From Gammaproteobacteria bacterium (lineage in GTDB: Bacteria; Pseudomonadota; Gammaproteobacteria; Steroidobacterales; GCA-2729495), in assembly GCA_024277915.1 (NCBI GenBank), contig JAJRUG010000112.1:1-64000 (forward strand): a DNA stretch of 64,000 bases, read 5' to 3'. Numbering within the stretch: the first letter of the stretch is position 1; the number at the start of each line of letters is the position of its first letter. Of the stretch, positions 37,731 through 50,329 are shown piece by piece. A program made the position numbers and the translations under genes. The notes below the pieces were generated by a model. That model had not been told where the DNA came from. It did not search any database and saw only the letters and a program-made list of their open reading frames with translations.

Positions 37731-39362
37731 CTACTCCCGCTCCAGCCGAAGATACCGGCTCGGCGGCGTGCCCCGGGATGAATCAATCCAGCCTTTAACA
37801 TCGGTGGATATCAGACGCTTGCCGATATAGTAGAAAAGCGGAATCATCGGATACTCGGACATAAATACTGTTTCTGCGCGTTGCAGTAATCTCTGGCGCT
37901 CATCAGGATCTTTTGCCAGGTTCGACTGATAGAGCAACTCATCATACTCCGTGCTGGAAAACCTTGGCCAGTTGTTCGGGCTATCGCCGTCCATGTTTTG
38001 CAAAAATGCGTAGGGGTCATTGTATGACGCCATGTAGAACCAGCGAATAACCTCGAAATCACCGGTATTGATTTTCCGGTTCAACATGCGGAATTCCATA
38101 TTGATAATTTCCGCCTGGACTCCTACGGCCTGCCACATGGCTGCCAGTGCAACCATGATTTTCCGGTTCTCCTGTTTGGTATCGTATTGCAGCGTGAAAC
38201 GCAACGGATTGTCCTCGCCAAAGCCTGCTTCCCGCAGCAGTTTTCTTGCCAGTTCTTGCCTTTCATTTAACGGCACAAGCTGGTCCGGAATGGTAATTCC
38301 ATCGTAATTATCAAATACCGTAGGGGTCCATGCATATGCCGGTGTCACACCTGTGCGCAACAACTTATCGGTTATCGCTTCACGATCCAGCGCAATGTTC
38401 AGCGCCCTTCTGACCCGCAGATCGTCGAAAGGCGGCTTGGCCATATTGATAACCAAAAAGTACGTTCCTGGCGAAGGTACACGATGCAGGGTTTCAGGAA
38501 TGTTTTCTCGAATCCATGCCAGCTTGTCGGAAGGATAGTTGAGCACGATATCCAGCTCTCCGACACGGAAACGCCGCAGTGATGTCGCAAGATCCTGAGT
38601 CGGGTGGTAGTAGACCTCATCTATCTGCACTGAATCCGCATCATAGAAATATGGATTCTTGACGAGCTTGACATATGACTGCGGCACCCGCTCAGCGAGC
38701 ACAAAGGGGCCACTGGAAACCATACGCCCCGGGCGTGTCCAGGCTTTGCCATACTTCTCGATCACATGACGTGGCACCAGACCCAACTGCATGTTACCAA
38801 TCAATTCGAGAAAGTAGGGCACGGGCTGGGTTAACCGGAATTCCACAGTGAATTTGTCAAGTGCAGTAACACCGAGCGATTCCACCTCTGCTTCACCGCG
38901 AATGATTTTGCGGGCATTCTCGAAAACGAAGAACGGCGCCCCCATAAAGGAACCCGTTTTGGGGTCTATGAGGCGCCGGTAGGAATAGACGAAATCATCC
39001 GCATCGATCAGTTTGCCATCAGACCAGCGCAGGTCCGTTCGCAGTTTGAATGTGTATACAGTGCCGTCTTCGCTGACAGTCCATTCAGTTGCTCCTGCCA
39101 ATTCCGGAACTGATTTTTCGTTACGGGCCATCAGGCCCACATACATATCCGTAACAATAGGCGATGCCATGGTGCCCGCTGCCAACGTCGGATCCAGCGA
39201 CCAGGGTGCGGCGGCCGTACCCCGGTGCAACACCACAGGGTCATCTGTGGCGGCAGATGCCACTGAGACCAGAACAATAAAAAGGCAGAAGAACCGGTTC
39301 AGGCGTACAAACCAGCCGGAAAGAAGCAACCGATGATATTCAGTCAAATGAAATTCATTCAC
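37731..39362 (-). CDS. Peptide/nickel-type ABC substrate-binding protein
   Basis: A 543-residue periplasmic binding protein of the OppA/DppA (SBP family 5) type. Seen are the signal peptide hydrophobic run RFFCLFIVLVSVASAA, LDPTLAAGTMASPIVTDMYVGL, the strand VPELAGATEWTVSEDGTVYTFKLRTDLRWSDGK, FDDLRVRRALNIALDREAI and the C-terminal repeats of the family. The likely start is GTG 39362, overlapping the stop of the upstream PD40 gene by eight bases (GTGAATGA), which suggests translational coupling; a longer frame to 39416 would overlap by 62 bases. No permease or ATPase genes follow. It may be an orphan binding protein working with the two propeller lipoproteins. Confidence 0.82.
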   Translation of the reverse strand: MNEFHLTEYHRLLLSGWFVRLNRFFCLFIVLVSVASAATDDPVVLHRGTAAAPWSLDPTLAAGTMASPIVTDMYVGLMARNEKSVPELAGATEWTVSEDGTVYTFKLRTDLRWSDGKLIDADDFVYSYRRLIDPKTGSFMGAPFFVFENARKIIRGEAEVESLGVTALDKFTVEFRLTQPVPYFLELIGNMQLGLVPRHVIEKYGKAWTRPGRMVSSGPFVLAERVPQSYVKLVKNPYFYDADSVQIDEVYYHPTQDLATSLRRFRVGELDIVLNYPSDKLAWIRENIPETLHRVPSPGTYFLVINMAKPPFDDLRVRRALNIALDREAITDKLLRTGVTPAYAWTPTVFDNYDGITIPDQLVPLNERQELARKLLREAGFGEDNPLRFTLQYDTKQENRKIMVALAAMWQAVGVQAEIINMEFRMLNRKINTGDFEVIRWFYMASYNDPYAFLQNMDGDSPNNWPRFSSTEYDELLYQSNLAKDPDERQRLLQRAETVFMSEYPMIPLFYYIGKRLISTDVKGWIDSSRGTPPSRYLRLERE

Positions 39363-40434
39363 CGAGCATAGGCTCGCCCCATTCAGGATCATAGGGTACG
39401 GCGTTTTCCGGGCCAAGGTTCAGTGAAGATACATCCATGATATGAGTACGTATCCCGCCAAACCCCTCGCCAGTGGCGCGACCCCAATTCATCTTCTTGC
39501 CGTCAGGAGAAACTGTGGCAAGAATATTCAGCTTATCGCTGAATGTCAGGCGCGTATGTTCGTCTGTCGCGAGATTGCCCAGAAAAATTTCCCAGTTGTG
39601 GTCCATGGCTTTTACGTACACGTAGTGCTGCCCGTCCGGTGTTGGATGCGGATGCCAGTTCATCGCACGATCATAGGTATGGCGCCGCCAGTTCGTGCCA
39701 TCTTTTTTAATCGTAAAAATGGTCATCGGGGTCGGCTTCACATCGCCAAAGTCTTCATCGCGCCAGGCCCGGAAAATAATATGCTCGTTATCCTGCATAA
39801 AAAATGGCGCGCCTTCATGCCAGTCGGTTGTGTTGGTAACCCTTTGTTCATCCGTGCCATCAGATCGCATCACCCAGATATCCATATTGCCGTCAATCTG
39901 GCGGCCAAAGGTAATCCACTCTCCGTCCGGTGATACCGAGACCTCGGCCTCGTAGTACTTGTTATTGGTCAATCGCTGGATATTCTTGCCATCCAGATCA
40001 GAGGTGTACAACTCGCCGCCCTGTGGATAGTTCGCCGGGTCAGTCCAGTCCCCCGGTGGCATATCCATGTTGTCCCGTGTCGATGTCCAGACCACGCGTT
40101 TTTGATCAGGGAAAAAATAGGAACAGCCATCCTGACCACGATCGTTGACCCGCCAGACTTCTTCACCATCGTCAGTGAAAATATAGGTCAGGTTTCCGTC
40201 TCCACCCCGAGCCGAGGGTACCGCATCCGGATCCTTGGTCTGGGCAATCAGGTATCTTGAATCCGGCGCCCAATAGGCCTCGGCAGCAACAGGGATATTG
40301 GGCACCATGTAGGACGGCAGTTCCCGGCTGTCCGCTCTTTTGAACTCGGGTTTCCCCGATTGGTCGGGAGCACAGGCAACCAATGCCAGAGTGGCAATTG
40401 CTATCGCCAATGCCGGTCGGATTGAGAAAGCCAT
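39355..40434 (-). CDS. PD40/WD40-like beta-propeller lipoprotein B
   Basis: A 359-residue propeller lipoprotein. The start is ATG 40434 with an AGGAGGGG ribosome binding site six bases upstream; the lipobox is LVAC. TolB-like PD40 blades recur: YYEAEVSVSPDGEWITFGRQIDGNMDIWVMRSDGTDEQRVT, MTIFTIKKDGTNWRR and KLNILATVSPDGKKMNW. It is a tandem paralogue of the preceding gene (40466-41617), with long shared segments. Its stop overlaps the start of the binding-protein gene. Likely a periplasmic scaffold. Confidence 0.85.
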   Translation of the reverse strand: MAFSIRPALAIAIATLALVACAPDQSGKPEFKRADSRELPSYMVPNIPVAAEAYWAPDSRYLIAQTKDPDAVPSARGGDGNLTYIFTDDGEEVWRVNDRGQDGCSYFFPDQKRVVWTSTRDNMDMPPGDWTDPANYPQGGELYTSDLDGKNIQRLTNNKYYEAEVSVSPDGEWITFGRQIDGNMDIWVMRSDGTDEQRVTNTTDWHEGAPFFMQDNEHIIFRAWRDEDFGDVKPTPMTIFTIKKDGTNWRRHTYDRAMNWHPHPTPDGQHYVYVKAMDHNWEIFLGNLATDEHTRLTFSDKLNILATVSPDGKKMNWGRATGEGFGGIRTHIMDVSSLNLGPENAVPYDPEWGEPMLGE

Positions 40435-40465
40435 GGATATCCCCTCCTGCTCGGGACTGGACAAG

Positions 40466-41617
40466 TTATGGTTTGGTGATACCTGGCACACCCTGATAAT
40501 TTTCCGGTCCGAGGTTGAACGATGTCATGTCCATCACATAGGTTAACAAGCCATTGTCACTTTCACCTTCCCGTGCACTGGCAAACAACATTTTTGTGCC
40601 ATCCGGCGACAGGGAGGGCAGACCATCAAACCCATCGTTGAAAGTAAGTCGAACCGGATCGCCACCTTTCAGATCGCCAAGATAGACTTCCCAGTTCCGT
40701 GGCGGGACGATTCGAACAAACACGTAATGCTGCCCGTCGGGAGCAGGATACGGCGCCCAGTTCATATCTTCATCAAAGGTTCTCTGGGTTCGCTCCGTAC
40801 CGTCATGCTTGACGGTAAACACCGTCATCGGTGTTGGAAAGATCGTGCCATAGGTGCTGCGTTTCCAGGCCCGGGTCAGAATGGTTTCATTATCCGGCAG
40901 GTAGAAAGGCGCACCTTCCTGCCATTCATCAGTGAAGGTGATCTGCTGCTCATCTGATCCATCCGGGCGCATCCGCCATAAATCCATCTTGCCATCGATC
41001 TGACGGCCAAAAACCACCCACTCGCCATTGGGCGAAACAGAGACTTCTGCTTCGTAGTATTCGTTATCCGTGAGCCGAACGATGTTCTTGCCTTCCAGAT
41101 CAGAAGTATAAAGCTCGGCTCCCTGCGGATATTCCTTCTCGTTGGACCAGTCGCCAAGCGGCATGTCCATGTTGTCCCGGGTGGAAGTCCAGATGATACG
41201 TTTCATATCCGGAAAGTAGTATGAACAAGCGTCCTGGCCGCGATCATTGATCCGGACGATATCTTCACCCGTATCCGTAAATATGTAGGTCAACGCGCCG
41301 CCGACTCTTGCGCCTTCCGGCTTCTGTGCAGCATCGTCCTGGGTCTGCGCAATCACATGGTAGCTGTCAGATGCATAGTAAGCCTCAGCAGCGGGCGGAA
41401 TATTGGGAATTTTACGGATTGGCAGCTCTGTCCCTGACATTTCAGGCATCGCGGCGCCCTCAGCCGGACTGGCCTCTGTCATCGCATCCTGCTCCGCGGC
41501 CATCGGGGCCTCATCACTACTATCTTGTTCTGAACAAGCAGCGAGAACGCCGAGTGAAATAATGAGCAAACCCATAACCAATGTACGGATCACTGACTGA
41601 ATAGGAAAAGTACTCAT
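40466..41617 (-). CDS. PD40/WD40-like beta-propeller lipoprotein A
   Basis: A 383-residue propeller lipoprotein. The lipobox VLAAC follows a 27-residue signal peptide, and an Ala/Glu/Met-rich linker (DEAPMAAEQDAMTEASPAEGAAMPEM) precedes the propeller. Blades share sequence with the next gene, such as YEAEVSVSPNGEWVVFGRQIDGKMDLW and DNMDMPLGDWSNEKEYPQGAELYTSDLEGKNI. It is the first gene of a three-gene set: propeller A, propeller B and a peptide-type binding protein. The genes face left. Its substrate is unknown; duplication gives two paralogues that differ mainly in the linker. Confidence 0.85.
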   Translation of the reverse strand: MSTFPIQSVIRTLVMGLLIISLGVLAACSEQDSSDEAPMAAEQDAMTEASPAEGAAMPEMSGTELPIRKIPNIPPAAEAYYASDSYHVIAQTQDDAAQKPEGARVGGALTYIFTDTGEDIVRINDRGQDACSYYFPDMKRIIWTSTRDNMDMPLGDWSNEKEYPQGAELYTSDLEGKNIVRLTDNEYYEAEVSVSPNGEWVVFGRQIDGKMDLWRMRPDGSDEQQITFTDEWQEGAPFYLPDNETILTRAWKRSTYGTIFPTPMTVFTVKHDGTERTQRTFDEDMNWAPYPAPDGQHYVFVRIVPPRNWEVYLGDLKGGDPVRLTFNDGFDGLPSLSPDGTKMLFASAREGESDNGLLTYVMDMTSFNLGPENYQGVPGITKP

Positions 41618-44280: not shown

Positions 44281-45279
44281 TCACGCTTGGTTCTGGACAA
44301 TCTTTACATCGGGAATGTTAAACAAGGACTTCCACTCTTTGGCGATCAGTAGATCCATTAATTCAGATGCCTTGCCTTCTTTTCTCCGCTCCATTTCCTC
44401 ATGCAGCGTAATCAATGCAGCATCGACCTCCGGGCCGAACAAAGTGCGCAGGTACTCGATCGGAACGCGGGGATCTTCAGCAAACCTGCCCTGCTCATCA
44501 AATGTCGGCGGCAGGATCGGCGGTACGTAGAATACATTCGGCTCGGTGCCATATTCAGGATGCAGAGGCAAAGCCACTTTCCACTGGTATACAAGCTTGT
44601 GTATCGGGCCATCTTCATCTTCAAGCATGCCGACGAATCGCAGCCGGCCAGGGCATTGCCGTGCACAGGCGGGCGCTACGCCCTGCTCTATCCGCGGGAA
44701 ACAAAAAATGCACTTCTGCGATTTTTTCGTAACGTAGTTGAAATACACCTTGTCGTAGGGACAGGCCCGGTTACACATCCGGATACCCTGACACTTGTCC
44801 TGATCAACCAGCACAATGCCGTCTTCCTCACGTTTGTAGATGGCGCGTACCGGGCAGGCTTCCAGGCATGCTGGTTTGGTGCAGTGATTGCATAACCGGG
44901 GCAGGTAAAAATGATAGTTGTTCGGGTAGGTGCCTGAACTGGTGTCTTCGTCCTGGTTAGCACCGTAAGCCATGGGCTCATTCTGCTGCAGCCGCGCTTC
45001 GATACCGCTGGAAAAAACCTGCTCGTGGTTCAGCGAACTTTCACCGCCATGATCCGCTCTCTCGGGAAGCTTGCCGTACTGCAATGTTCCATTGTCGAAT
45101 CCGCCACCGTCCTGCTCCCAGTCCTTGGGATAACCCGGGCCTGGTTTGGTTTCGACATTGTTCCACAGCATGTACTCCTGACCTTCCTCGTCAGTCCACA
45201 GTGACTTGCACGCGGCGGTACAGGCCTGACAACCGATACACTTGTTAAGGTCCATGACCATTGCAATCTGTCTGCTCAT
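44281..45279 (-). CDS. Iron-sulfur (beta) subunit of a type II DMSO-reductase family enzyme
   Basis: A 332-residue electron-transfer subunit with four Fe-S cluster motifs, like NarH, EbdB and DdhB. They are CIGCQACTAACK near the N-terminus, CNHCTKPACLEACP, CQGIRMCNRACP and CIFCFPRIEQGVAPACARQCP. The CQGIRMC motif is the one that differs among type II members. Its start is two bases after the catalytic gene stop. It carries electrons from the molybdenum centre to a haem or quinone partner; no gamma (cytochrome b) gene follows. Confidence 0.92.
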   Translation of the reverse strand: MSRQIAMVMDLNKCIGCQACTAACKSLWTDEEGQEYMLWNNVETKPGPGYPKDWEQDGGGFDNGTLQYGKLPERADHGGESSLNHEQVFSSGIEARLQQNEPMAYGANQDEDTSSGTYPNNYHFYLPRLCNHCTKPACLEACPVRAIYKREEDGIVLVDQDKCQGIRMCNRACPYDKVYFNYVTKKSQKCIFCFPRIEQGVAPACARQCPGRLRFVGMLEDEDGPIHKLVYQWKVALPLHPEYGTEPNVFYVPPILPPTFDEQGRFAEDPRVPIEYLRTLFGPEVDAALITLHEEMERRKEGKASELMDLLIAKEWKSLFNIPDVKIVQNQA

Positions 45280-45281
45280 GG

Positions 45282-48074
45282 TCAGCTACCTCTTCCAACG
45301 GATTGCTGACCGGAAACAACAGCTGCTTCCTGAGCGGGTTCGATGTAGCGCTCGAAGTCACAGGTGAAATCACTGTAGGTCTGGTTGGGCACGTTATCCG
45401 GCGTTTTGAAATTCAGATGCCCATAGTCCCCCACCAGCGAAGTTGGCTTGATCAGGCCGCCCGTTGGGATCACTGCACTGAAGTTCTGTCGATCCCTGAA
45501 CATCATCGGATCCCAGCCGTGATACATGAATAAAGTCCCTGGCTGCATTCCCGACGTCAAGTGAGCGTTGGCAACAAATGATCCATAGGAGTTGAATATG
45601 CGGATCAGCTCCCCGTCAACAATGCCGCGCTGCCCGGCATCATCGCGATTCACATAGATGTCCGGTTCGCCGCGCTGCAGACTGAGCAGTAACGTATCGT
45701 CGCGGTACAAGCTGTGCACTCCGTGTCGAGCATGTCCCATCAGCATGCGCAATGGATACCCTTTGATGCTCAGAGGTTCTCTGTGTACCGGTAGCTGCTC
45801 CCCTTCCTTCAGAAACCAGTCATGATCAATGTAAAACTGCTGGCGAGAAGTTAATGTCTTGTAAGGTTTTTTATCAATCACACTTGCATAGATCTGGTAG
45901 TTATAGGGGGACTGCTTGCCAAACTGGGTACCTTCGGCATCATCAACCCTGATGATTCCCTTTTCAGACAGCTCGTCGAAAGACACTTTCGGCAGTCCGA
46001 AGGAATTGTCGATAATGAACTGCACCAGGTCCCTGGTATCGTTAATCTGACCATCAAGCGTGAATTGCTGATCCAGTTTTGAATAATCACGTTTGATCGG
46101 CTGACCATAAATATGATCATCGATAGGTGCGATCCCGCGTTCGATGACCACTTCCTGGATCGCACGCGCGAGCCGCGCCATGATTTCCCGATCATCAACG
46201 GATTCGCCCAGCGGTGCGACAGCCCGGTCGAGCACCTGCATATACGGCGTCCTGCCTTCCAGCGCGATGTCCTGGCGCTCGTAGTGATGGGCGACCGGCA
46301 GCACATAGTCGGCGTACATGGCCGTCGTACTCCAGTCCGGTGTGGTTGCAACGATCGTCTCAAGATCTTCCATGACTGTTTCACGCCAGGATTTTCCGGA
46401 TGCCCTCCAGTTAGCCGGATTAAGGCCGGCAAAAATTGCCATCTTCCAGGGGGTTTTTGCGTAATCCGGAATCCAGTCATTAGCAACCGACTCACGATGG
46501 TGTTTGTCCAGGTACTCGGCGTATTCTTCGCCATACACCTGGGCTGTGACTTCTTTATGATTCGCGTGTGCATAGTCCCAGAGCGAAAGCGCGGCGACCC
46601 TTAACCGGGGCCCAGTTCCGGCGAATGCATATTTCATGACACCGTCTGCCTTGGGTAGCTGCGTCGTCTGCATACCGCCCCCTTCACGGCCCGTATTGCC
46701 GGTTAACGCGCACATCAGCAGCCAGGCACGCTGGATCTTGTCCCCGTGCAGATATTTTGCCGACCGGTAACCTGCATAGATCATCGCCGGCCGGGCATCG
46801 GCAAAAATCCGAGCCACTTCACGAATCACATCGGGGTGCAGACCAGTCGTTTCGGTGATTTTTTCCGGAGCGTAGTCCTCTGCCATCTCCTTGACCAGCT
46901 CGAATACAGTAGTAACCTCGACCGAGCCTTCCTGTGTCTCCACAGTCCATCGACCTTCCAGAGCCGGAGCAATCTTGCCGAGGGTCAGAGTCTCACTTGC
47001 ATCTGCATTGCCGCCGGTCGCCGGCGCACGAACTGCTGCGCCCGAGGATTCATCCCACAGATAAAATGTATTTTCATCTGCACGATCACTACCGGCAGGA
47101 TACAAGTCCGTTGCACGAAGAAATTTCTGGTTGTCGGTGCGCACCAGAAAAGGCAGATCCGTCTGTTCACGAACATAGTCCCATTCAACGCTGCGATCCG
47201 CCAATATGGTATGCACCATCGCCATTGCGACAGCTGCATCGGTACCCGGCTTTGGGTTCAGCCATTTTGAAGAACGCATTGCAGTGGGAGAAAAATCAGG
47301 AGAAATTGTAATGATCTCGGCACCGTTATAACGAGCCTCCCAGAAAAAATGTGCGTCCGGAATCCGGGTCACGGCCGGGTTGCACATCCAGATCAGGCAA
47401 CAGCGAGATTTATACACTGCCGCCATGGTGTCGCAGGGCAGTGCCATGCCCAGGGTCATGTGCGCACCGATGGGCAAATCACCCACACCGGCAAAGGTCT
47501 CCGGCACAACCACCCCGGTCAGATTGGCAAACCGGAACAACGATGCCAATGCGGCACGTTTCAGAATCATGGCCGTGCCCATCGCAAAGCTGACCGACTG
47601 CGGGCCATGCTCGACGACGTTATCGACAAATTTCTCAGCGATTTCCCGGGTAGCCTGATCCCAGCTGATTCTCTCCCACTGGCCACCACCCCTGGCACCG
47701 GCCCGTTTCAGCGGATACAAAATCCGCTGTGAGCCATACATATACTTGGCCTGCCGCAAACCCTTCTGGCATCCTCTGGGGCCGTAGTCCGGCGCATCGC
47801 CTGATGAACCATACTCACCCTGCTGCTCTTCGCGCCAGACAATGCCGTTTTTGACATAGATGTTGAATGCGCAGTGGCCGGTGCAATTCACACCACGACT
47901 CCCGTGAACCACCCGGTCCCAGGTCCACTTCTCGCGCATGATGTCTTCCCACTGCCCGTACACCTGCTGTGCGGCACCGGCTTCGGAAATCGCACCGTAT
48001 TTCAGAGATAGCGCGATGGCAACCGCGCCACTACCCTGCAGAAACTCTCGTCTACCGACTTGCACCTGGCTCAT
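45282..48074 (-). CDS. Molybdopterin-dependent oxidoreductase, catalytic subunit (type II DMSOR)
   Basis: A 930-residue Mo-bis-MGD enzyme of the NarG/EbdA/SerA branch. The N-terminus has a twin-arginine signal (GRREFLQGSG), so it is exported to the periplasm. The first Fe-S motif is HGSRGVNCTGHC...RGCQKG with Cys64, Cys68 and Cys102; the residue four before Cys64, usually His, is Arg60, while His57 lies three earlier. Asp199 in FAGVGDLPIG is a candidate Mo ligand. The enzyme could hydroxylate or reduce an unknown substrate. It is preceded by a nitrilase-like gene and followed by the iron-sulfur subunit. No TorD-like chaperone or haem b subunit is adjacent. Confidence 0.9.
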   Translation of the reverse strand: MSQVQVGRREFLQGSGAVAIALSLKYGAISEAGAAQQVYGQWEDIMREKWTWDRVVHGSRGVNCTGHCAFNIYVKNGIVWREEQQGEYGSSGDAPDYGPRGCQKGLRQAKYMYGSQRILYPLKRAGARGGGQWERISWDQATREIAEKFVDNVVEHGPQSVSFAMGTAMILKRAALASLFRFANLTGVVVPETFAGVGDLPIGAHMTLGMALPCDTMAAVYKSRCCLIWMCNPAVTRIPDAHFFWEARYNGAEIITISPDFSPTAMRSSKWLNPKPGTDAAVAMAMVHTILADRSVEWDYVREQTDLPFLVRTDNQKFLRATDLYPAGSDRADENTFYLWDESSGAAVRAPATGGNADASETLTLGKIAPALEGRWTVETQEGSVEVTTVFELVKEMAEDYAPEKITETTGLHPDVIREVARIFADARPAMIYAGYRSAKYLHGDKIQRAWLLMCALTGNTGREGGGMQTTQLPKADGVMKYAFAGTGPRLRVAALSLWDYAHANHKEVTAQVYGEEYAEYLDKHHRESVANDWIPDYAKTPWKMAIFAGLNPANWRASGKSWRETVMEDLETIVATTPDWSTTAMYADYVLPVAHHYERQDIALEGRTPYMQVLDRAVAPLGESVDDREIMARLARAIQEVVIERGIAPIDDHIYGQPIKRDYSKLDQQFTLDGQINDTRDLVQFIIDNSFGLPKVSFDELSEKGIIRVDDAEGTQFGKQSPYNYQIYASVIDKKPYKTLTSRQQFYIDHDWFLKEGEQLPVHREPLSIKGYPLRMLMGHARHGVHSLYRDDTLLLSLQRGEPDIYVNRDDAGQRGIVDGELIRIFNSYGSFVANAHLTSGMQPGTLFMYHGWDPMMFRDRQNFSAVIPTGGLIKPTSLVGDYGHLNFKTPDNVPNQTYSDFTCDFERYIEPAQEAAVVSGQQSVGRGS

Positions 48075-48091: not shown

Positions 48092-49165
48092 CTAGAGCAG
48101 GCCTGCCTTGACCAGCCGTTCAATATTCGCTTCCTGGCGTTTTACGAAAAACTCCTTCTCTGGAATCTCCATGACTTCACCATCTTTCATCAAGGAGTTT
48201 GCCTGATGAAATTTCGCCTGCGAATAACTTTCGGCAAAAAGATCGTAAGCCTGCCGCGAAAGAACATTCGACATGCCGCGGCGTCTTCGTGTTCTTCGCA
48301 ATGCAGCGATATCAATCACAGCATTCGCCGACATGCTTTCCCCGCCCAGACTGGCTTCAACCAGTACATTACCCAGGTAATCAACAATTTTTGACATGCC
48401 GCTGCAGGTATACGGCGGGATCGGCATTCCTTCAAAATTCGCTGTATTGGCAGCGATCACATAGGCCATGTTCTCAATCGCCCGGGCGCGCCGGCAGGTG
48501 TCTTTATAGGTCCATTGCGAGCTGCCGACTTCGCTGGTCGGATGGAGAATTACTTCAGCACCCCGCATCACATGACAACGGCTGATTTCCGGATACAGGA
48601 TTTCTTCAGAGGCGATCATCGCGAGATTGCCGATTTCGGTACGTGCCACCGGGAATACACCATCCAGCCCGTAGATGTCCAGATACTTCTCCCACACGTC
48701 ATGTGGTGTTGGTTCGAATGTTGATGTCAGGCGACGATAGCGCAAAATGACATCACCGGATGGCCCGATGATATAGCAGGTCTGGAAATACATATCGGGG
48801 AAGTTCGGGTCGATATCGTAGGCATTCCCCGCCAGATAGATATTGTTCTCCTGGGCAATTTTGCCCAGTGCTTCGTATTCCGGACCATCGTAGTGAAACG
48901 CGGCCTTGTCCCGCCATTCTGCCGGGCTTTCTTTCATCGGAAACCCTGACACTGAAAACTCAGGTAACAAGACCAGCCGCACGGGCGCACCGTAGAAAAA
49001 ATCCAGGAAGTTCACCGCAGTTTTTGTGTAGCCCCCTAGCGCCGCAATTTTCTTGCTCATCACTTCCTGGGCAGCCTTGCGGTCAGTGCAGAAATTGACA
49101 CCCGAGCAGGTTGTTTGCAGCGCGACCGCGATGTATTCAAGATCTTCGGTATTCTCGTCTGACAT
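48092..49165 (-). CDS. Nitrilase-superfamily protein lacking the catalytic Cys and Lys
   Basis: A 357-residue carbon-nitrogen hydrolase fold. The Glu is kept (VLLPEFSVSG, Glu69), but the Lys position (YRK in active members) reads YRRL (Arg145), and the nucleophile Cys position (ICYD or CND before the FPE) is Ser186 in AMIASEEILYPEISR. An amide or nitrile hydrolase would need Cys, so it is probably inactive or altered. It is the first gene of the molybdoenzyme operon, with 17 bp to the catalytic subunit. It may act in cofactor or substrate delivery. Alignment by eye; the Ser position could be an alternative nucleophile. Confidence 0.83.
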   Translation of the reverse strand: MSDENTEDLEYIAVALQTTCSGVNFCTDRKAAQEVMSKKIAALGGYTKTAVNFLDFFYGAPVRLVLLPEFSVSGFPMKESPAEWRDKAAFHYDGPEYEALGKIAQENNIYLAGNAYDIDPNFPDMYFQTCYIIGPSGDVILRYRRLTSTFEPTPHDVWEKYLDIYGLDGVFPVARTEIGNLAMIASEEILYPEISRCHVMRGAEVILHPTSEVGSSQWTYKDTCRRARAIENMAYVIAANTANFEGMPIPPYTCSGMSKIVDYLGNVLVEASLGGESMSANAVIDIAALRRTRRRRGMSNVLSRQAYDLFAESYSQAKFHQANSLMKDGEVMEIPEKEFFVKRQEANIERLVKAGLL

Positions 49166-49351: not shown

Positions 49352-50005
49352 CTATGATCGTACTGTGGCTGCCTGTACCCGCCGGCAAGATACCGCGGCC
49401 AGCGACAAAAGACCCAACATCATCAATATCAGAGTACCCGGCTCCGGCAGCGGCTTGGCTGTACCGTAAAGATCCAGTCCCCAACTTTGCTGTACGCAAT
49501 CACCCTGGTAGCAATTCCCGTTGCCGCCAGTATAGGCGGCCGTATTCTGCCCCCAGAGGAGCAGGTAATTACTGGTGATCTGATTGACCATGCTGTTGAT
49601 TTGTTCAAAGTAGAACCGCCCTTTGCCGGTGACATCCAGATACCACAGCGGATCCATGCTATTTGAGTAGTAGTCACCGCCCAGACTGCCACCGGTAACA
49701 TCATAGCCGTTGAGCATGCCGGTGATACCGGAAAGGATAGTTCCATCCCAATCACCAAATAACATTCCGGTTAATGCTGTCTTGGTGCCGCCCGAACCAG
49801 GACACATATAAAGCGTGTCGTTCGAACCGTTATTGTCCATATCCAGATCGCTGGAACCTGTGCATCCACCTGCGCTATGCAACCAGCTGGCAGAGTAACC
49901 GCTGGTCGCATAGGGTCCAATGTCATACCCCACCGGCACGGCCCAAAGCGACACTGGCGCAGCTATCAACAGAGCTGCCATGCTGGCAATTAATCTGATT
50001 TTCAT
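49352..50005 (-). CDS. PEP-CTERM sorting-domain protein
   Basis: A 217-residue secreted protein from the ATG at 50005 (MKIRLIASMAALLIAAPVSLWA signal peptide). The C-terminus is a classical sorting domain PLPEPGTLILMMLGLLSLAAVSCRR: PEP motif, membrane helix and basic tail. The body has Cys pairs and many Gly/Ser/Asn, with no recognised domain. A longer frame to 50086 exists but would add an atypical leader. It and the protein at 18821 indicate an exosortase system. Confidence 0.9.
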   Translation of the reverse strand: MKIRLIASMAALLIAAPVSLWAVPVGYDIGPYATSGYSASWLHSAGGCTGSSDLDMDNNGSNDTLYMCPGSGGTKTALTGMLFGDWDGTILSGITGMLNGYDVTGGSLGGDYYSNSMDPLWYLDVTGKGRFYFEQINSMVNQITSNYLLLWGQNTAAYTGGNGNCYQGDCVQQSWGLDLYGTAKPLPEPGTLILMMLGLLSLAAVSCRRVQAATVRS

Positions 50006-50329
50006 AGTGGTCTCCAATCCATGGATTTGTTGTTTTTCCGATCTCCAGATAAACAAAGCAACTAGCGTGCCAACTCTGCTAGTCATTGTTTTTATTTGCT
50101 TTTATCTGTTTATTGCTAGAACCATCAGGCCGACTGTAAATATTTTCGGCAACTTGTTTTTTGTTCCAGCTAGCCATAATCCCGGGCAGGGAAAATAAAT
50201 TGTGAACTGCGTCACAAGAATTCCTTAAATTGAAGCCTTATGCCAAAAACCGGCGCTGCGTGTTCCATTTGAGGCATTTTCGAGGTGTAAAACTGTCCGG
50301 CACCTCATAAGGCAAACAGCCTGGACAGG

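Follow-up and report, generated by a model that had tools for sequence, protein, structure and literature searches.

Results

A nitrilase-like gene heads a molybdoenzyme operon

The window, the whole stretch of 64,000 nucleotides that was analysed, carries on its minus strand three genes in the order nit, alpha, and beta. The first, nit (49165..48092), encodes a nitrilase-superfamily protein of 357 aa with a substituted active site (E69-R145-S186) and no obvious signal peptide. Its stop codon is 17 nt from the ATG of alpha (45282..48074, minus strand), whose 930-aa product is a molybdopterin subunit of the type II DMSO-reductase family with a Tat-type signal (RR at residues 8-9). Another 2 nt separate alpha from beta (44281..45279, minus strand), which encodes a four-cluster iron-sulphur subunit of 332 aa and is the last gene of the operon, the genes beyond it being convergent. 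The sequence-only reading had placed nit at the head of a molybdoenzyme operon, and the two type II DMSO-reductase genes downstream bear this out. Measured against a genome of the same genus, at a dS near saturation, dN/dS was 0.035 for nit and 0.045 for both alpha and beta; the nit value indicates strong purifying selection on this gene. The region upstream of nit (49352-50086) encodes a PEP-CTERM protein by a weak match (21.9 bits versus a cut-off of 20.7 bits). Downstream of the operon, and on its strand, lie genes for two tandem PD40 beta-propeller proteins (39355-41617), with two opposite-strand genes in between that encode a DUF1015 protein and a metallo-beta-lactamase fold protein.

The alpha product scored 862 bits against TIGR03479, below the cut-off of 984.75; its alignment with the perchlorate reductase subunit PcrA (530 bits) spanned the full length. 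The beta product passed the TIGR03478 iron-sulphur model (512.4 bits versus a cut-off of 480.7) and aligned likewise with the ethylbenzene dehydrogenase subunit EbdB at 407 bits. Alpha Asp199, in the motif GVGDLP (47478..47480, minus strand), corresponds in the alignment to the Asp of GDHP in PcrA, and we take it to be the Mo ligand. All 15 Cys residues of beta were kept in each of the 17 betas compared. The operon thus shares with DMSO reductase subfamily II (PcrAB, EbdAB, and NarGH) the Mo-ligand Asp, the three FS0 Cys residues, and the 15 beta Cys residues, and since all of these are kept, the electron path seems intact. It differs from that subfamily in having a nitrilase-like gene and no gamma or delta gene, and in the FS0 site of alpha. 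The haem b gamma subunit model PF09459 matched nothing in the 40 family genomes, although a divergent gamma subunit could be missed by this model.

The linkage of nit to the molybdoenzyme was then compared across these 40 genomes, which include the window's own. Four could not be tested because contig ends had apparently split or truncated the matches. In all 36 testable genomes, nit and alpha were adjacent and on the same strand, with 20 to 212 nt between the matches. The conservation of this linkage, which had been noted in the window alone, together with the low dN/dS, led us to reject the possibility of a lone odd gene or an assembly accident. In the phylum sample, relatives of alpha (E <= 1e-120) were found in the window's own genome alone, and no linkage was found there outside the order. 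The closest named records were metagenome-assembled genomes labelled as Chromatiales, Gammaproteobacteria, or Pseudomonadota bacterium. Nit is locked into one operon with the molybdoenzyme throughout a family of mostly uncultured bacteria.

The active site of nit is Glu-Arg-Ser

The only Pfam domain matched by nit was CN_hydrolase (PF00795; 95.5 bits versus a cut-off of 23.2), and a Pfam profile search found no match in it to the TorD/NarJ family (PF02613). Within the nitrilase superfamily, its nearest branches are the amidases, formamidases, and N-carbamoylputrescine amidases; the best curated models, formamidase and agmatine_aguB, both scored far under their cut-offs, and there was no equivalog match. 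The AlphaFold2 model of nit (pLDDT of 91.2 and pTM of 0.92), for which one row from an annotated plasmid record was left out of the input alignment, has the nitrilase strand order, and the closest solved structures to it were amidases and formamidases, with 2uxy at the top (E of 3.8e-21), followed by 4gyl and 5g3p. Thus nit resembles the superfamily in its fold, catalytic Glu, elbow, and strand order and differs from it in that Lys has become Arg and Cys has become Ser; its identity to these solved structures is approximately 20%.

Catalysis in the nitrilase superfamily requires a Glu-Lys-Cys triad. In pairwise alignments with solved structures, nit E69 (48959..48961, minus strand) matched the catalytic Glu of formamidase, and R145 (48731..48733, minus strand) and S186 (48608..48610, minus strand) fell on the catalytic Lys and the nucleophilic Cys, respectively, of Nit2, NitFhit, and formamidase. 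In the predicted structure, a strand ends at E69, R145 comes right after a strand, and S186 opens the elbow helix. Arg145 was present in 45 of 45 aligned homologues, and the Cys of the nearest Cys-bearing relatives falls exactly at column 186. We therefore rejected a misalignment of the nucleophile; an alternative alignment that would restore the Cys was looked for and none was found, so the retained Glu and the two substitutions proposed from the sequence hold. D156 is the pairwise counterpart of formamidase's second acidic residue; being Asp in every group examined, it is not special to the nit clade. When homologues beside the same molybdoenzyme were aligned, all 27 distinct operon-linked nit copies had Glu-Arg-Ser (E-R-S) in place of the Glu-Lys-Cys triad, and none retained Cys and Lys. 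These results show that the nit product is a cytoplasmic protein with the nitrilase fold and belongs to a distinct subfamily, whose Glu-Lys-Cys site has become Glu-Arg-Ser.

A Cys-to-Ser exchange normally inactivates nitrilases. Judged by the titles of their entries, Cys-to-Ser and Cys-to-Ala mutants of nitrilases have been solved with a ligand bound (5h8l and 6ypa), which indicates that Ser is compatible with ligand binding.

The E-R-S site is older than its association with the molybdoenzyme

A set of 48 E-R-S sequences, consisting of the 27 distinct operon-linked copies and 21 others, was 43 to 100% identical to the query and represented several different groups within the Pseudomonadota plus one actinomycete. 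Across the set, 41 columns were invariant, among them E69, R145, S186, E187, and E188. In a tree of 83 nit sequences, the E-R-S proteins formed a single clade (SH-aLRT of 100) adjoined by E-R-C proteins that retain the Cys, and the operon-linked copies formed one clade (100) inside it. This nesting places the Arg and Ser in the protein before the association with the molybdoenzyme, and, on a tree that is midpoint rooted, made by a quick method, and has long branches, we reject the idea that the substitutions evolved for the molybdoenzyme. The operon clade has only two private fixed residues, E151 and T253. Glu151 (48713..48715, minus strand) was present in 27 of 27 operon-linked copies and in 0 of 21 other E-R-S homologues, and is part of the loop that runs from the catalytic Arg (R145) towards D156; by the order of secondary-structure elements in the model it would lie in the pocket, which suggests that the pocket of the operon clade is specialised.

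Outside the operon, E-R-S proteins occur in other settings. The window's genome has a second one (G000:C15), 56% identical to nit, with no molybdoenzyme adjoining and divergent from genes for an Fe-S flavoprotein and the POR alpha and beta subunits. This arrangement, with POR being 2-oxoacid:ferredoxin oxidoreductase, is seen at loci L029, L032, and L047, and some of the nits in this set have an amidohydrolase gene and an isochorismatase-like gene nearby. An aldehyde dehydrogenase gene is directly downstream of the E-R-S nit in genome G262 and adjoins that at locus L117, and likely also that at L118, judged there by the sequence start alone. Homologues with E-R-S were present in three other genomes among the 274 of the class sample and in one more of the phylum sample, and also in Nonomuraea gerenzanensis. 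The aldehyde dehydrogenase and POR neighbours of these non-operon members indicate catabolism rather than molybdenum maturation. The E-R-S site is not decaying: no member of the subfamily departs from it, irrespective of gene neighbourhood. In one member (L120:1345-2499, genome G640), the protein opens with a Tat-like leader, MNRRDVLMTALAAGASLA, and to judge by this leader some E-R-S members may be exported.

TorD genes are present elsewhere in the family genomes

The sequence-only reading held that the usual TorD-like chaperone was absent and that nit might replace it. The absence stands for the operon, and BLAST detected no TorD in 23 nit-linked loci. It does not stand for the genomes, because PF02613 proteins were found in 24 of the 25 family genomes searched, the exception being a genome (G020) that is 72% complete, and the window's genome has three. 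The candidate explanation that no TorD is available was therefore rejected at the genome level. A single contig of the window's genome (L077) carries two further molybdoenzyme operons, each with its own TorD-like gene. Two further groups of alpha paralogues were 56 to 60% identical to the alpha of the window. A sister group has the order alpha-TorD-beta (L080, L083, L103, L109, and L110), and alphas of the other group mostly have no adjacent beta; one alpha of this second group (L097) lies downstream of amidohydrolase, AMP-ligase, and DSBA genes. TorD/NarJ/DmsD proteins (PF02613) thus hold in the sister operons the niche that nit holds here, but their fold is unrelated to that of nit, and their genes lie elsewhere in nit-bearing genomes. 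Away from the nit operon, locus L085 (genome G016) has a type II beta gene that lacks a neighbouring alpha and is preceded by a TorD gene. One NarJ is known to mature two enzymes in trans (PMC6618116), which, together with these unlinked TorD genes, makes a TorD acting in trans plausible; with TorD available in this way, nit is not required to explain the missing operon TorD. Replacement of an absent TorD by nit was accordingly not borne out, given the TorD genes of these genomes and an E-R-S site that is older than the operon.

The FS0 motif of nit-linked alphas is rearranged

FS0 of DMSO reductase subfamily II is liganded by three Cys residues and one His that is described as fully conserved (PMC8840923). 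In the alpha of the window, the three Cys residues are kept, but alignment placed Arg60 (47895..47897, minus strand) at the position of the His ligand, and a new His67 (47874..47876, minus strand) lies inside the motif C64-T-G-H-C68. All 21 nit-linked alphas compared had both Arg60 and His67 (C64-T/S-G-H-C68). Neither residue was present in any of the 25 other alphas, of which 24 had His60 and one, a distant alpha, had Asn. The nit-linked alphas are thus an apparent exception to the described conservation of this His, and we found no report of such a change. The simplest idea is that the His ligand would have been relocated to position 67.

Discussion

The explanation that we prefer, and to which we give about an even chance, is that nit is a nitrilase with a substituted active site whose ligand or substrate is a metabolite from the pathway in which the molybdoenzyme acts. 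Because its E-R-S site is invariant across the subfamily, nit most likely retains the ability to bind a small molecule of carboxylate, amide, or ester-like type, which it would either turn over with Ser as the nucleophile or use as a bound ligand. By its sequence conservation the site looks retuned and functional, not decaying. In other lineages that have lost the Cys, position 186 is Gly, Ala, or Val, so that Ser is not the sole residue possible there. The trees and the linkage support the view that, in the family's ancestor, an operon resembling those of type II DMSO reductases took up one E-R-S copy as its first gene and that, after this recruitment, the private Glu151 would have been gained in the loop past Arg145. 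Nit would probably act on the substrate of the molybdoenzyme, its product, or a metabolite derived from either, and the Tat-exported alpha-beta pair would presumably be matured by a TorD encoded elsewhere. Counting against this explanation, a Ser in place of the Cys normally inactivates nitrilases, nit is without an export signal and alpha has one, so that a shared pathway would need transport, and the strict linkage (36 of 36) with the coincident FS0 rewiring would also suit a dedicated partner of alpha.

Such a partner could be a dedicated maturation or proofreading factor, which would attach to apo-alpha or to its Tat leader and aid insertion of FS0 or the Mo cofactor, replacing TorD, perhaps because the FS0 site was rewired (Arg60 and His67). 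Insertion of FS0 and the Mo cofactor in NarGH depends on NarJ (PMC5123574), so a rewired FS0 could accompany a changed maturation partner. The constant adjacency of nit and alpha fits this role, as do the lack of TorD by BLAST in the linked loci versus the alpha-TorD-beta order of the sister clade, and the coincidence of the R60/H67 clade with exactly the nit-linked clade (21 of 21 versus 0 of 25). This last correlation is the best argument for a maturation factor, yet it stems from one evolutionary event. The near-universal presence of TorD in the family genomes also speaks against such a factor, as does the ability of a single REMP to serve two different enzymes (PMC6618116); moreover, clade III alphas are also without an adjacent TorD yet have no E-R-S nit beside them, and the identical E-R-S site occurs in homologues beside non-molybdenum genes. 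We consider a dedicated maturation factor, the main alternative, rather unlikely, and the binding or maturation role proposed from the sequence is possible but is not the reading that we favour. The more specific proposal that the FS0 His moved into CxxHC (His67) and that TorD was simultaneously swapped for an E-R-S nit as dedicated maturation partner seems distinctly unlikely.

We also considered whether nit could have lost catalysis altogether, binding no ligand and serving only as a scaffold or regulator. Substitution of both Lys and Cys is what a plain pseudoenzyme would show, and the Cys has been lost in several other lineages (E-K-G, E-K-A, and E-K-V), some of them in the same genomes. 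A useless site, however, would not need to stay invariant over 48 sequences in unlike contexts, and a dead nit appears improbable. It is more improbable still that nit is a third structural subunit that binds alpha-beta, travels with them through Tat, and fills the place of the missing gamma. That no PF09459 gamma was found in the 40 genomes, that beta closes the operon, and that the L120 homologue has a Tat-like leader would agree with a structural role, but divergent gammas may escape PF09459, nit is of the nitrilase fold without a haem or electron-transfer motif, and its only two operon-specific fixed residues offer no obvious conserved new interface.

These results define a conserved Glu-Arg-Ser nitrilase-like subfamily and show that one of its members is tied to the operon of a molybdoenzyme. 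No description of this subfamily was found in the literature searched, which also yielded nothing useful on inactive or Ser-type nitrilases; the search was limited, and absence is not proven. Two questions are raised, whether Ser serves as a nucleophile and whether His67 is an FS0 ligand. The paralogous operons of one family (nit-alpha-beta, alpha-TorD-beta, and alpha alone) are a natural experiment on the choice of a maturation partner.

Other nitrilases were also observed in these genomes. Nitrilases of a third Cys-less type, E-K-V with a short deletion, lie within approximately 10 kb of TorD in three genomes (L078:13735-14811, L088:11878-13098, and L089:2700-3752), and at L078 the genes behind the nitrilase resemble ABC-transporter ATPases, by their sequence start only. 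Nine loci of alpha paralogues (L093, L094, L095, L096, L097, L098, L100, L102, and L108) carry a pair of other nitrilases, one with Glu-Lys-Cys and the other, from one E-K-G clade, with Gly at the Cys position, as if active and inactive copies were kept together.
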